NCBI GenBank assembly: GCA_023443625.1
Contig: JAEZTQ010000011.1
Location: forward strand, 1 to 64,000
DNA: 64,000 nucleotides
Source: Bacillota bacterium
GTDB taxonomy: Bacteria; Bacillota_A; Clostridia; Lachnospirales; Lachnospiraceae
Direction: 5' to 3'
Shown one piece after another: positions 17,563 to 30,828 of the stretch. The notes beneath the pieces were generated by a model. That model saw only the letters and a list, made by a program, of their open reading frames with translations, was not told the origin of the DNA and made no database searches. Positions within the stretch are counted from its first letter, which is position 1; every line of letters starts with the position of its first letter. A program made the translations under genes and the position numbers.

Positions 17563-18318
17563 ATGATACTGGAGATTAGTGAACTCAGTAAAGAATTTCA
17601 TAAATATGATAAACGGATTCATGCAGTAGATCAGGTATCATTTCAAATAAAATCAGGAGAATTTGTCAGTATTATTGGCCATTCCGGGAGTGGGAAAAGT
17701 ACACTGTTTCATTTGATTACAGGTCTTCTTAGACCAACCAGCGGAAAGATCTGTATCGATAATCGAGTAATCAATTCGGCAGGTGAGCAGGAGTTGGCTT
17801 TACTTAGAAATCAGAAAATTGGATATATACTGCAGGAACAAAATCTACTAAGTAACTATACCGTGCTGGAGAATGTATGGATGCCGGGTATTATTTATAA
17901 AGGAAAGAGTAAAGAAAGCATCAAAGCAATGGCGGAAAGAATTCTTGAGCTGGTTGGACTGAAAGAGCAAAGAGATTCGTACCCGAATCAAATCTCTGGT
18001 GGTGAAGCAAGAAGAGTAGCCATAGCGCGGGCACTGATCAATACTCCGGAGGTTATCATTGCTGATGAACCTACCAGTAATCTTGATCCGGATAATAGCG
18101 CACAAATAATTCAGTTGTTTCGAGGAATTAGCGACAGTGGTGTAGCTGTTATCATCAGTACGCATGATCTGAGTGCCTTAAAATATTCGGATAAGGTATT
18201 TTTAATGAGACAAGGAAAACTGGAGAAGAAGGAAGAAGATATCATTAATAAAGGAGAAAAATATGAGTGGAATAAAGAAATCAATTACAGAATTGGTTGG
18301 GGGGACACCTCTTCTTGA
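17563..18318 (+). CDS. ABC transporter ATP-binding protein (LolD/MacB-like)
   Basis: This 251-residue ATPase has Walker A GHSGSGKST, the Q-loop EQNLLSNYTV, signature ISGGEARRVAIARAL, Walker B VIIADEPTSNLD and the H-loop STHD. The signature and DEPTSNLD are of the LolD/FtsE/MacB class rather than the SsuB/NrtD class expected for the broken permease upstream, so its true partner is unclear. The ATG at 17563 follows GGGGAG; a GTG three codons earlier is less likely. Its 3' end overlaps the cysteine synthase gene by 56 bases, and the last 18 or so residues look like non-family readthrough. This may reflect a frameshifted end. Confidence 0.85.
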   Translation: MILEISELSKEFHKYDKRIHAVDQVSFQIKSGEFVSIIGHSGSGKSTLFHLITGLLRPTSGKICIDNRVINSAGEQELALLRNQKIGYILQEQNLLSNYTVLENVWMPGIIYKGKSKESIKAMAERILELVGLKEQRDSYPNQISGGEARRVAIARALINTPEVIIADEPTSNLDPDNSAQIIQLFRGISDSGVAVIISTHDLSALKYSDKVFLMRQGKLEKKEEDIINKGEKYEWNKEINYRIGWGDTSS

Positions 18319-19246
18319 ATTAACAAATTATGAAAAACAGAATAACCTTGAAGCTGAAATCGTGGTTAAGCTGGAATATTATAATCCGAATCAAAGTGTG
18401 AAGGATCGTATTGCACTTGCCATGATTGAGGATGGTGAGAAAAGAGGTTTATTAAAACCGGGCGATACCATAGTTGAGACGACCAGCGGTAATACCGGCA
18501 TCGGACTGGCGGCAATCGCAGCTGCCAAGGGGTATAAATTTAAGGTATATATTCAAGATACTGTAAGTACTGAACGCTTTAAGGTAATTAAGGCTTTTGG
18601 CGGTGAAACCGTTAAGCTGGGAGATGTTCCTGAGGTAGCAAAAGTAATGGAGGAAACTGGGGGAGATTTTGTTGCCGCAATCAAAGAGCTTGAGGATAAG
18701 ATATTATCCAAAGAGAAGGATATCTTCTTTGTAAATCAAATTGAGAATCCTGCAAACCCCGAGGTACATAAGAGAACAACCGGTCCAGAAATATGGGAGG
18801 ATACCAATGGGAAGGTGGATATTCTAGTATCAGCCGTTGGAACAGGAGGGACGGTATCGGGTTCCGGCGCGTTCTTAAAATCAAAGAATCCGGATATTAA
18901 GATAGTTGCAATACAGCCGGGGCCGGAATCGTTACCGAATGAAAATGATCCGTTACCACCTGATATTACCGGTGTGCACCCATTTCAAGGAATTCCGCAG
19001 GAGCGTATTCCTGCTAATATGGATCTTAGTATCTATGATGAGGCCTTTGAGGTTGAGACCTATCAGGCTTATGAAGCGGCCAGAGCTGTAGCAAAATCAG
19101 ATGGTATCTTAATCGGTACCTCATCTGGAGCAGCAATCTACGCGGCAACACAGTTGGCAAAAAGACCGGAGAATAAGGGGAAAAGAATCGTAGCGGTATT
19201 ACCGGATACAGGTCTTCGTTACCTGTCAACCGGACTTTTTGAATAA
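18263..19246 (+). CDS. cysK: Cysteine synthase (O-acetylserine sulfhydrylase)
   Basis: A PLP enzyme that makes L-cysteine from O-acetylserine and sulfide. The PLP lysine is in NQSVKDR near residue 45, the substrate loop is TSGNTGIG near residue 75, and the phosphate-binding glycine loop is GTGGTVSGSG near residue 195. A second SSGAA motif is near the C-terminus. At 327 residues it is a normal length. AAAGGAG precedes the ATG inside the end of the ATPase gene, which suggests translational coupling. Directly ahead of the NifH-like gene, it ties this locus to sulfur assimilation: sulfide released by a downstream reductase could be captured here (inference). Confidence 0.9.
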   Translation: MSGIKKSITELVGGTPLLELTNYEKQNNLEAEIVVKLEYYNPNQSVKDRIALAMIEDGEKRGLLKPGDTIVETTSGNTGIGLAAIAAAKGYKFKVYIQDTVSTERFKVIKAFGGETVKLGDVPEVAKVMEETGGDFVAAIKELEDKILSKEKDIFFVNQIENPANPEVHKRTTGPEIWEDTNGKVDILVSAVGTGGTVSGSGAFLKSKNPDIKIVAIQPGPESLPNENDPLPPDITGVHPFQGIPQERIPANMDLSIYDEAFEVETYQAYEAARAVAKSDGILIGTSSGAAIYAATQLAKRPENKGKRIVAVLPDTGLRYLSTGLFE

Positions 19247-19321
19247 GTTTCTAAGAATATGGGGGGTATATTTTAATTTCATAGTAATCTTAAAAAATTC
19301 AGATAAGAAAGGGATAATATT

Positions 19322-20200
19322 ATGGCTAAGAAAACAACACAGATTGCAATCTATGGAAAAGGAGGTATCGGTAAATCCACTACAACATCGAATCTTTCCG
19401 CAGCTTTATCGGAAATGGGTTATAAGGTAATGCAGTTTGGCTGTGATCCTAAGAGTGATTCCACCAATACACTTCGAGATGGTAAATATATACCAACCGT
19501 ACTCGATACGTTGAGAGAAAGAAATTCCGTAAAAGCGAGTGATGTAATCTATGAAGGCTTTAATGGGATTTATTGTGTGGAGGCTGGAGGCCCGGCTCCC
19601 GGTGTTGGATGTGCAGGAAGAGGTATCATTACTGCAGTTGAATTATTTAAACAGCAGAAGGTATTTGAAGAGCTGGAGCTTGACTATGTTATCTATGACG
19701 TACTAGGTGATGTGGTGTGTGGGGGCTTCGCAGTTCCGGTAAGAGAAGGAATTGCAGAGCACGTATTTACCGTATCATCGGCAGATTTTATGTCAGTCTA
19801 TGCCTCCAATAATTTATTCAAGGGAATTCATAAGTACTCTAAATCAGGGGGCGCGTTACTTGGAGGAGTGATTGCTAATTCAATCAATGCACCATATGCC
19901 AAGGAGATTATTGATGATTTTGTAGCACAGACCAAGACTCAGGTAGTGGAATATGTACCACGTTCCGTAACGGTTACGCAAAGTGAACTTCAAGGTAAAA
20001 CTACAATTGAAGCTGCACCGGAGTCAGTTCAGGCGGATATCTACCGATCCTTGGCGAAAAAGATTGCTAACCATACAGAATCCAAGGTTCCGGCTCCACT
20101 GGAGATTGCAGAACTTAGACAGTGGGCTGCAAAATGGGGGGATTATCTATTATCTGTTGAAACGAATACAGTTCGAACAGAAAACGCAGCAAATATCTAG
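19322..20200 (+). CDS. Nitrogenase iron protein-like (NifH-like) ATPase
   Basis: This homodimeric [4Fe-4S] reductase couples MgATP hydrolysis to electron delivery to a NifDK-type partner. The Walker A/P-loop is YGKGGIGKST (residues 11-20). The two cluster cysteines are Cys97 (GVGCAGRGI) and Cys133 (GDVVCGGF), almost exactly the NifH positions. Arg100 follows Cys97 as in true NifH. At 292 residues it has full NifH length. It is diverged at the switch regions and C-terminus, and belongs with the uncharacterised nitrogenase-like groups. AAAGGG lies 5' of the ATG. It is the only NifH-like protein here, so it must serve one or both DK-like pairs. Confidence 0.9.
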   Translation: MAKKTTQIAIYGKGGIGKSTTTSNLSAALSEMGYKVMQFGCDPKSDSTNTLRDGKYIPTVLDTLRERNSVKASDVIYEGFNGIYCVEAGGPAPGVGCAGRGIITAVELFKQQKVFEELELDYVIYDVLGDVVCGGFAVPVREGIAEHVFTVSSADFMSVYASNNLFKGIHKYSKSGGALLGGVIANSINAPYAKEIIDDFVAQTKTQVVEYVPRSVTVTQSELQGKTTIEAAPESVQADIYRSLAKKIANHTESKVPAPLEIAELRQWAAKWGDYLLSVETNTVRTENAANI

Positions 20201-20217
20201 TGAATGGAGGTAATAAC

Positions 20218-30500: not shown

Positions 30501-30540
30501 AAAACGCATACGTAACCCTTTGGGGTTGTTATGCGTTTTT
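30501..30540 (+). terminator. Terminator of the nitrogenase-like locus
   Basis: AAAACGCATAxxxAACCC pairs with GGGTTxxTATGCGTTTTT around a short loop, ending in a U-run. In the preceding spacer a weaker inverted repeat (CTACCGG at 30349, CCGGTAG at 30421) is also visible. Confidence 0.85.
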
Positions 30541-30587
30541 GCGGTTCTAAAAAAATTAGTATTTTAAGATAAAATATGTAAAACTTA

Positions 30588-30616
30588 TTGACAATTGGAA
30601 AATATTATTATATATT
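30588..30616 (+). promoter_or_regulatory. Sigma-A promoter of the small YezD-like gene
   Basis: TTGACA (30588-30593), a 17-base spacer and TATATT (30611-30616), 48 bases upstream of the small gene. Confidence 0.75.
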
Positions 30617-30663
30617 AATACATATTAATCATATAAGAAAAGTATGAAAAAGAGGGATGGATA

Positions 30664-30828
30664 TTGGAAAAGATGAATAGCTTACTTCAAAAGAATAAAA
30701 TATCAGATAATGAAATTCAAAAGATCATTGAATTTTTAGAAACGATAAAATACGGATCAGTGACCATTATAGTTCAGGATGGAAAGATTATGCAGATTGA
30801 AAGAAATGAAAAAATCAGAATTAAGTAA
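30664..30828 (+). CDS. Small YezD-like (DUF2292) protein
   Basis: A 54-residue frame starts at TTG 30664 with AGAGGG seven bases upstream. It reads MEKMNSLLQKNKI and ends with YGSVTIIVQDGKIMQIERN-EKIRIK. The YGSVTIxxQDGKxxQIERxEK signature is that of the YezD/DUF2292 family, whose members are often encoded beside sulfate or sulfonate assimilation genes (recalled, not searched). Function unknown; probably cytoplasmic. Its own promoter and its place immediately after the nitrogenase-like locus add to the sulfur theme. Confidence 0.8.
   Translation: MEKMNSLLQKNKISDNEIQKIIEFLETIKYGSVTIIVQDGKIMQIERNEKIRIK

Follow-up and report, generated by a model that had tools for sequence, protein, structure and literature searches.

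Two nitrogenase-like DK pairs of distinct clades in one sulfur-linked operon of a Lachnospiraceae bacterium

Gene content of the operon

The stretch of DNA analysed here (hereafter the window) comprises 64,000 nt of contig JAEZTQ010000011.1 (assembly GCA_023443625.1) from a Bacillota bacterium of the Lachnospiraceae. Between positions 18263 and 30828, and entirely on the plus strand, it contains a nitrogenase-like operon composed of a cysteine synthase gene (cysK), one iron-protein gene (H), a first pair of alpha and beta subunit genes (D1 and K1), a NifB-type (B) and a NifX-like (X) gene, the genes of an ATP-binding cassette (ABC) importer, a second alpha-beta pair (D2 and K2) and a small DUF2292 gene. 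A preliminary description made from the sequence alone had placed these genes together on one strand, and they were indeed recovered there as open frames with matches to family models. The two DK pairs belong to two different clades and, as detailed below, their predicted cofactor ligation differs. The features of the operon are the following:

18263..19246, plus strand: CysK-like cysteine synthase (TIGR01136, 331.9 bits for a cut-off of 344.15; PF00291, 226.5 bits)
19322..20200, plus strand: H, NifH-like Fe protein with Cys97 and Cys133 (TIGR01287, 410.5 bits for a cut-off of 394.35)
20218..21684, plus strand: D1, alpha subunit of the Arg-His (MAR-type) superclade (PF00148, residues and tree)
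21689..22987, plus strand: K1, beta partner of D1, P-cluster Cys12/36/95 (best solved relative MarK)
23049..23918, plus strand: B, short NifB-type radical SAM protein without a NifX domain (TIGR01290, PF04055)
23979..24332, plus strand: X, NifX-like cofactor carrier (PF02579, 76 bits)
24399..25226, plus strand: family 3 substrate-binding protein of an amino-acid-type ABC importer (PF00497, 89.7 bits)
25232..25951, plus strand: importer permease 1, an open reading frame named by its place between the binding protein and the ATPase, with relatives in other loci
25974..26684, plus strand: importer permease 2, named in the same way, with relatives in other loci
26677..27432, plus strand: importer ATPase (nearest NCBIfam model TcyN, 319.2 bits for a cut-off of 406)
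27564..29009, plus strand: D2, alpha subunit of a separate clade (PF00148, residues and profile alignment with NifD)
29044..30330, plus strand: K2, beta partner of D2, P-cluster Cys12/37/102 (best solved relative MarK, 255.8 bits)
30501..30541, plus strand: likely intrinsic terminator closing the operon (hairpin 30512-30529 and a T-rich tail)
30673..30828, plus strand: YezD-like small protein, DUF2292 (PF10055, 66.2 bits for a cut-off of 22)

D1, K1, D2 and K2 each match PF00148 (E from 1.2e-70 to 3.6e-81) and each carries three P-cluster cysteines; these, together with the two Fe-protein cysteines of H, had been described as conserved and all were found by the residue check. Alternative starts are possible for D1 (GTG at 20200) and for D2 (TTG at 27525), most relatives of D2 beginning near the ATG at 27564. 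The importer genes of the preliminary description are present as well, its "cystine-type" label being only the nearest one available: the closest NCBIfam model of the binding protein is a cystine-binding one, with 88.1 bits for a cut-off of 312, and the ATPase also stays below its cut-off.

D1K1, a pair of methylthio-alkane reductase architecture

The closest solved relatives of the first pair are subunits of methylthio-alkane reductase (MAR), an enzyme which converts 2-(methylthio)ethanol into methanethiol and ethylene. D1 scores 331 bits with MarD (9fmg) and 106 bits with NifD, and K1 scores 374 bits with MarK (9d9u chain C) and 81 bits with NifK. D1 has the P-cluster cysteines Cys52/77/143, the cofactor cysteine Cys255 and Arg412-His413 in Loop I, and retains equivalents of MarD Cys270, Arg428, His429, Trp195 and His375; the MarD active-site residue His194 is replaced by Ile179. 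The Loop I Arg-His pair is present in all 53 D1 relatives with 57% identity or more (52 match the pattern and L008 reads SRHPG). It has been proposed as a possible hallmark of MAR (PMC12552129) and is common to further clades, being found in 62 of 113 non-Nif D proteins. At the positions of nitrogenase Gln191 and His195, D1 has Trp and Phe, and it does not reach the cut-off of either the nifD (130.4 bits for 653.55) or the nifE family model (159.9 bits for 505.1).

A tree was built with FastTree from 123 alpha-type proteins thinned at 88% identity, including NifD, NifE and AnfD references; MAR is represented by one named protein and its relatives, and the set is without named sequences of IsrD, NfaD, VnfD, Bch or Cfb. 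The Arg-His proteins group in a single superclade (support 0.97) that also takes in L094, with RAH in its loop, and in which MarD and its close relatives make up one branch (1.00) and D1 lies in another (0.96). Because D1 branches outside the MarD clade, D1K1, although of MAR-type architecture by its sequence, does not belong to the MAR clade. A tree of 96 K proteins corresponding to the 123 D proteins agrees, with both pairs outside the Mar clade. D1 and D2 also fall outside the NifD, AnfD and NifE references (VnfD not included), so that the phylogeny which the preliminary description had called for gives no placement inside true nitrogenase; placement among BchLNB/CfbCD was scored by family models only, the best being BchB with 124.8 bits (cut-off 490.35) and the CfbD model giving 53.6 bits (cut-off 268.4), far under the cut-offs. 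The comparison with MAR made in that description holds for D1K1 alone, which is part of the Arg-His superclade and branches apart from MarD. A Clostridial version of MAR with two DK pairs, as envisaged there, is not what is seen, since D2K2 is of a different clade and a MarD relative (71% identity) exists separately in a genome of the same phylum (L112).

D2K2, a second clade with a likely Loop II ligand

D2K2 is a second clade for which sequence comparison predicts a cofactor ligation different from that of D1K1. The clade is tight, the best 120 of 617 D2 relatives (E<=1e-20) all being at least 72% identical. D2 has the P-cluster cysteines Cys48/73/141, the cofactor cysteine Cys258 and, in Loop II, His422. 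A four-residue gap removes the Loop I Arg-His, and D2 has Cys for MarD Trp195, Thr for His375 and Ile177 for His194; the positions of nitrogenase Gln191 and His195 are occupied by Cys and Phe. The nifD (150.5 bits, cut-off 653.55) and nifE (180.5 bits, cut-off 505.1; K2 114.7 bits) family models are not reached. Both D1 and D2 have the equivalent of the NifD cofactor cysteine Cys275, and an equivalent of NifD His442 is found in D2 only, by phmmer and profile comparison and not by MAFFT. A TH[VI]L[DE] motif is present near the C-terminus of 80 out of 80 unique D2 proteins, and also in an L113 relative 44% identical to D2; a longer common pattern, H-x-x-[DE]-x-x-x-P-x-x-G-[YF], is matched by 73 of the 80.

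His422 was aligned on NifD His442 both by phmmer, with three NifD chains, and by hhalign, with a NifD/AnfD profile, and is thus likely a cofactor ligand in the His442 register. Several points weigh against this assignment. Its sole basis is the alignment, the MAFFT alignment of the superfamily sets the gap elsewhere and leaves the D2 His off NifD His442, and NifD has two more residues in this loop than D2; because the MAFFT alignment does not place His422 on His442, the ligand is likely rather than proven. Moreover, TH[VI] near the C-terminus coexists with a Loop I His in 5 of the 113 non-Nif D proteins. A strict either/or rule between the Loop I and the Loop II His was considered and rejected, as both are present in these five and missing from three proteins that have the cofactor Cys.

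The split between D2 and a neighbouring clade with "-H" in Loop I is weakly supported (0.61). This group with a Loop I His but no Arg accounts for 18 of the 113 non-Nif D proteins (e.g. L106_2549, L109_12872, L114_3072 and L093_1402) and stands beside D2 in the tree, again with weak support.

Co-occurrence of the two pairs

Among 396 genomes from the family of Clostridium sp. HBUAS56010 (G021), presumably the Lachnospiraceae, D1 relatives (64-70% identity) were detected in 24 and D2 relatives (66-78%) in 14, with 13 genomes having both, 11 only D1 and one only D2 (Fisher p = 4e-17, uncorrected for relatedness). Upon inspection, one D1-only genome (G568) proved to have a D2 fragment, and in the D2-only genome (G530) a D1 truncated at the edge of its contig (L105) was recognised; the counts then become 15 with both, 10 with D1 only and none with D2 only (p = 6e-21), this inspection being one-sided in that fragments were sought only in genomes with hits. 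K2-like pieces are present in two of the ten D1-only loci, in L095 at about 635-736, near the end of the stretch, and in L102 at 12257-12484, which suggests a secondary loss. In a phylum-wide sample of 299 genomes, D1 relatives occur in G348 (75% and 64%), which has no D2 relative above 39%, and, broken, in G002, while a D1 search in the order of G004 returned only G004 itself (1 of 148).

Conversely, 50 of the 80 D2 genomes were searched for D1, which was found in 41 (in G002 as a broken copy only) and not found in nine. Three of these nine (G006, G010 and G024) have a paralog of 37-40% identity; eight are metagenome bins according to their titles and the ninth, MC2017, is not a bin. In MC2017 (L041) the locus reads X-B fusion, X, SsuABC, iron-containing alcohol dehydrogenase, HisC-like, D2, K2 and H. 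In L013, a single contig carries MetB, PatB, B, X, H, CysK, X, Rrf2, SsuABC, D2 and K2. Neither locus has D1K1, and in each of the two genomes the one D match at E<=1e-20 is D2 itself. D1K1 does not seem to require D2K2, since 11 of the 24 D1-bearing family genomes gave no full-length D2, and neither pair appears strictly dependent on the other.

Two genomes of the set deserve separate mention. In the complete genome of Anaerocolumna sp. AGMB13025, D1 and K1 are broken (L002, 1758-3456) and the matches to H, B, X, the importer, D2 and K2 each extend over the greater part of the sequence; this genome also has NifD, NifE and AnfD above the family cut-offs. A Bacillota metagenome-assembled genome (L007, G007) yields 20 D1 matches at E<=1e-20, an extreme number of nitrogenase-like proteins for one bin.

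Presumably shared components

NifB-type proteins build the 8Fe carbide precursor, NifX-type proteins carry it and NifH-type dimers supply electrons with ATP. The B protein of the window matches the nifB model TIGR01290 with 277.7 bits, below the cut-off of 343.65, the match at model positions 10-290 of 441 covering only the radical-SAM part. As to H, 29 of the 40 loci with full-length D1 and D2 have exactly one copy, 11 have none in the fetched stretch and none has two. The H proteins of relatives are either of a close type (76-87% identical to that of the window) or of more distant types (44-63%), and because both types also adjoin other nitrogenase-like clades, the Fe protein appears to be interchangeable. 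The H of the window scores above the NCBIfam nifH equivalog cut-off though its partners are not nitrogenase; automatic annotation would therefore call it a nitrogenase iron protein and such loci nitrogen-fixing.

Neighbourhood of related loci

The genome scan based on the D2 alignment found 186 loci, of which 80 were kept. Genes were counted by sequence clusters, one representative being named for most of them, and within fetched stretches, many of which end at contig ends, with fragments included; the LysR, SsuB, NifS and NifU labels are those to which we presume the corresponding clusters belong. K2 lies beside D2 in all 80 loci, D1 is present in 45, K1 in 49, X in 40, B in 35, cysK in 35 and H in 34. 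Further neighbours are Rrf2/CymR-like (21 loci), SsuB-type ATPase (19), LysR (16), PatB (13), MetB/C-type (11), SsuC-type (11), SsuA-type (11), CysE (10), NifS (8), iron-containing alcohol dehydrogenase (8), NifU (7), ThiF-rhodanese (6) and HisC-like aminotransferase (5) genes. The sulfur linkage and the idea of a new organosulfur reductase put forward in the preliminary description are both supported by these neighbours and by the phylogeny. The order B-X-D2-K2-H-(cysK)-D1-K1-X-importer recurs in L021, L022, L031 and L035, and the locus closest to that of the window belongs to Lachnoclostridium sp. UBA1308 (D2 87%, D1 92%). D2 loci are found in records named Lachnospiraceae, other Clostridia, Spirochaetes, Synergistaceae, Coriobacteriia and Dehalococcoidia. 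Gut and rumen samples are the source of many.

The type of transporter was also considered as a label of one pair and rejected, SsuABC-type genes lying near three of ten D1-only loci as well (L096, L098 and L100). In L041, L001, L003, L068 and L096, these genes accompany an iron-containing alcohol dehydrogenase and a HisC-like aminotransferase, a set which might serve to deaminate and reduce an amino-sulfonate ahead of C-S cleavage.

Upstream remnant and flanking regions

Two features directly upstream of the operon had been missed by the preliminary description:

16313..17440, plus strand: SsuABC-type transporter remnant, permease in two frames followed by the C-terminal part of the binding protein (tblastn)
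17554..18318, plus strand: intact ABC transporter ATPase overlapping the start of cysK (PF00005, 127.6 bits)

With relatives from L074, L037 and L013 as queries, tblastn detected permease pieces in frames 1 and 2 (37-41% and 60-67% identity) and residues 254-343 of 369 of the binding protein in frame 3, the damage consisting of a frame change and of a deletion by which the permease has become attached to the C-terminal part of the binding protein. SsuABC-type copies that look whole occur in relatives such as these three loci. The nearest flanks are a ROK-family gene on the minus strand upstream and minus-strand genes downstream.

No nifV, molybdate transport or nifA gene was found among the hits of the 20 window open reading frames scanned outside the cluster (five of them without a hit), and no nifE, nifN or nifV among the window genes scanned, which are a part of the total. 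An Rfam search of 15750-19330 for a riboswitch in the leader gave no match at E<=1, and promoter and terminator scans of the region were overall at chance level, with 10 terminator hits for a shuffle mean of 10.0. Elsewhere in the window (38749-40116 and 46019-47581), a tRNA adjoins a phage-type integrase, with a reverse-transcriptase gene further along, and this stretch is possibly an integrated mobile element.

Comparison with known systems

The marBHDK system of Rhodospirillum rubrum resembles the present operon in its B, H, D and K parts, in the P-cluster and cofactor cysteines and probably in its role in sulfur metabolism. The operon differs by a second DK clade, without the Arg-His loop, and by X, CysK and an ABC importer. 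MAR was rightly named as a precedent in the preliminary description, which left out a second published one in sulfur metabolism, the isethionate reductase isrBHDK of Rhodobacter capsulatus (PMC11423573); this system likewise combines B, H, D and K with sulfonate transport and sulfur assimilation. IsrD, however, lacks two P-cluster cysteines and the cofactor cysteine, and IsrB is not close to NifB, the opposite of what is seen for D1, D2 and B. With NifDK, AnfDK and NifEN, both pairs share the P-cluster and cofactor cysteines and D2 shares the His442 register in profile comparison, whereas Gln191/His195 are absent, the clades are separate and the scores lie far under the family cut-offs.

Among group IV nif-like genes, DK pairs outnumber H in Paenibacillus sabinae (PMC4246453), where several pairs per H occur and these genes are neither regulated by nitrogen nor able to complement nitrogenase mutants, and in heliobacteria such as Heliophilum (PMC9147875). 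In Clostridium indolis, K401DRAFT_3874-3880 show the order D-K-H-(gap)-D-K-PF02579 of L021/L031, and apparently this very operon is listed under nitrogen fixation in a Table 8 for this species (PMC4149025). MarHDK-like genes have been reported near sulfur genes in mlp clusters (PMC10418091). In the available parts of these sources, such genes are listed as nitrogen-fixation genes, as genes of unknown role or as MarHDK-like, and neither a two-pair sulfur operon nor a contrast in ligands is described. The literature searched yielded no description of the two-pair operon, a weak negative given that most subscription papers and bioRxiv lie outside its coverage.

Proposed function and alternatives

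On balance, we lean towards the operon encoding two organosulfur C-S reductases which share H, B and X and feed CysK. B would make the 8Fe cofactor precursor from S-adenosylmethionine and X would carry it, while the H dimer would pass ATP-driven electrons to both pairs, each of which would draw on this single set of B, X and H. Each pair would hold a P-cluster and an 8Fe cofactor, the latter bound in D1K1 to Cys255 and to Loop I Arg412-His413 and in D2K2 to Cys258 and probably to Loop II His422. Such an 8Fe cofactor was first reported for MAR in 2025 (PMC12552129), and the His ligands of nitrogenase and MAR lie on different loops and are probably of independent origin (PMC12552129, PMC13031127). 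The two pairs would reduce different organosulfur compounds, most likely by cleavage of a C-S bond, these compounds entering by the amino-acid-type ABC importer and, in relatives, also by SsuABC, and the sulfide or thiol released would be passed to CysK. The type of importer suggests an amino-acid-like compound, and the SsuABC remnant suggests that an ancestor also used a sulfonate-like one; that SsuABC and the importer are specific to neither pair counts against this reading of the operon. More tentatively, D2K2 may represent an undescribed class of 8Fe-cofactor reductase, distinct from both nitrogenase and MAR, with a Loop II His in the nitrogenase register, next to a D1K1 of the Loop I Arg-His type, for two organosulfur steps.

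A different role for D2K2, initially favoured here because the pair has no MAR loop and adjoins X and B, is that of a NifEN-like scaffold which would mature or store the cofactor for D1K1 as the sole catalyst. The higher score of D2 with nifE than with nifD, the recurrent order B-X-D2-K2, the missing MAR loop ligand and the near-constant presence of D1 in D2 genomes all fit this role, and the last point, expected of a maturase too, weakens the case for two reductases. The scaffold role was demoted by the D1-only genomes (including G568 with its D2 fragment, and G348), by the loci L041 and L013, which carry D2K2 with B and H and no D1K1, and by the invariant His of D2 in the NifD His442 register, where NifE has the weak ligand Gln419 (PMC13031127); both P-cluster halves of D2K2 are intact as well. 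Since genomes with D1 only and loci with D2K2 but without D1K1 exist, D2K2 is probably a second reductase and not a maturase, and the scaffold role appears distinctly improbable. Alternatively, D1K1 would be a plain methylthio-alkane reductase acting on volatile thioethers and D2K2 its diverged duplicate, in line with MarDK being the nearest characterised relative and with the Arg-His hallmark. This we consider unlikely, given the position of D1 outside the MarD clade, the Ile in place of MarD His194, the presence of the Arg-His loop in further clades and the strong conservation of D2 as a clade of its own.

Two further possibilities carry very little weight. An operon of the isethionate or sulfonate reductase type would agree with the SsuABC-type remnant upstream and its whole-looking copies in relatives, the known Isr system consisting of B, H, D and K plus SsuCAB (PMC11423573). 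Yet IsrD has one of three P-cluster cysteines and no cofactor cysteine, and IsrB resembles NifB in the radical SAM motif only (PMC11423573), whereas D1 and D2 have all these residues and B is NifB-type; Cys-poor D proteins are indeed encoded in the genome set (L126 and L168), separated from D1 and D2 in the tree. It is just as doubtful that one pair is a minimal group IV nitrogenase of the NfaDK type fixing N2 without NifEN, a reading to which the Cys/His pair of D2 in nitrogenase register and the reported NifEN-less diazotrophs with group IV proteins (PMC9147875) would lend themselves. Against it stand the missing Gln191/His195 equivalents in D1 and D2, the position of both pairs outside the Nif/Anf references (in a tree without named NfaD sequences), scores far under the nifD cut-off and the sulfur-type neighbourhood.

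Implications

Few nitrogenase-like enzymes have an assigned function, and the present operon would add two uncharacterised clades to sulfur metabolism. The nifH cut-off taken alone can mislabel loci of this kind as nitrogen-fixing. If D2K2 is indeed such an undescribed class with a Loop II ligand, both known solutions for cofactor ligation would coexist in one operon on one Fe protein and one cofactor supply, offering a natural side-by-side test of the effect of Loop I versus Loop II ligation on reactivity, and the two pairs would catalyse two different steps by which bacteria of gut, rumen and sediment use organosulfur compounds anaerobically.

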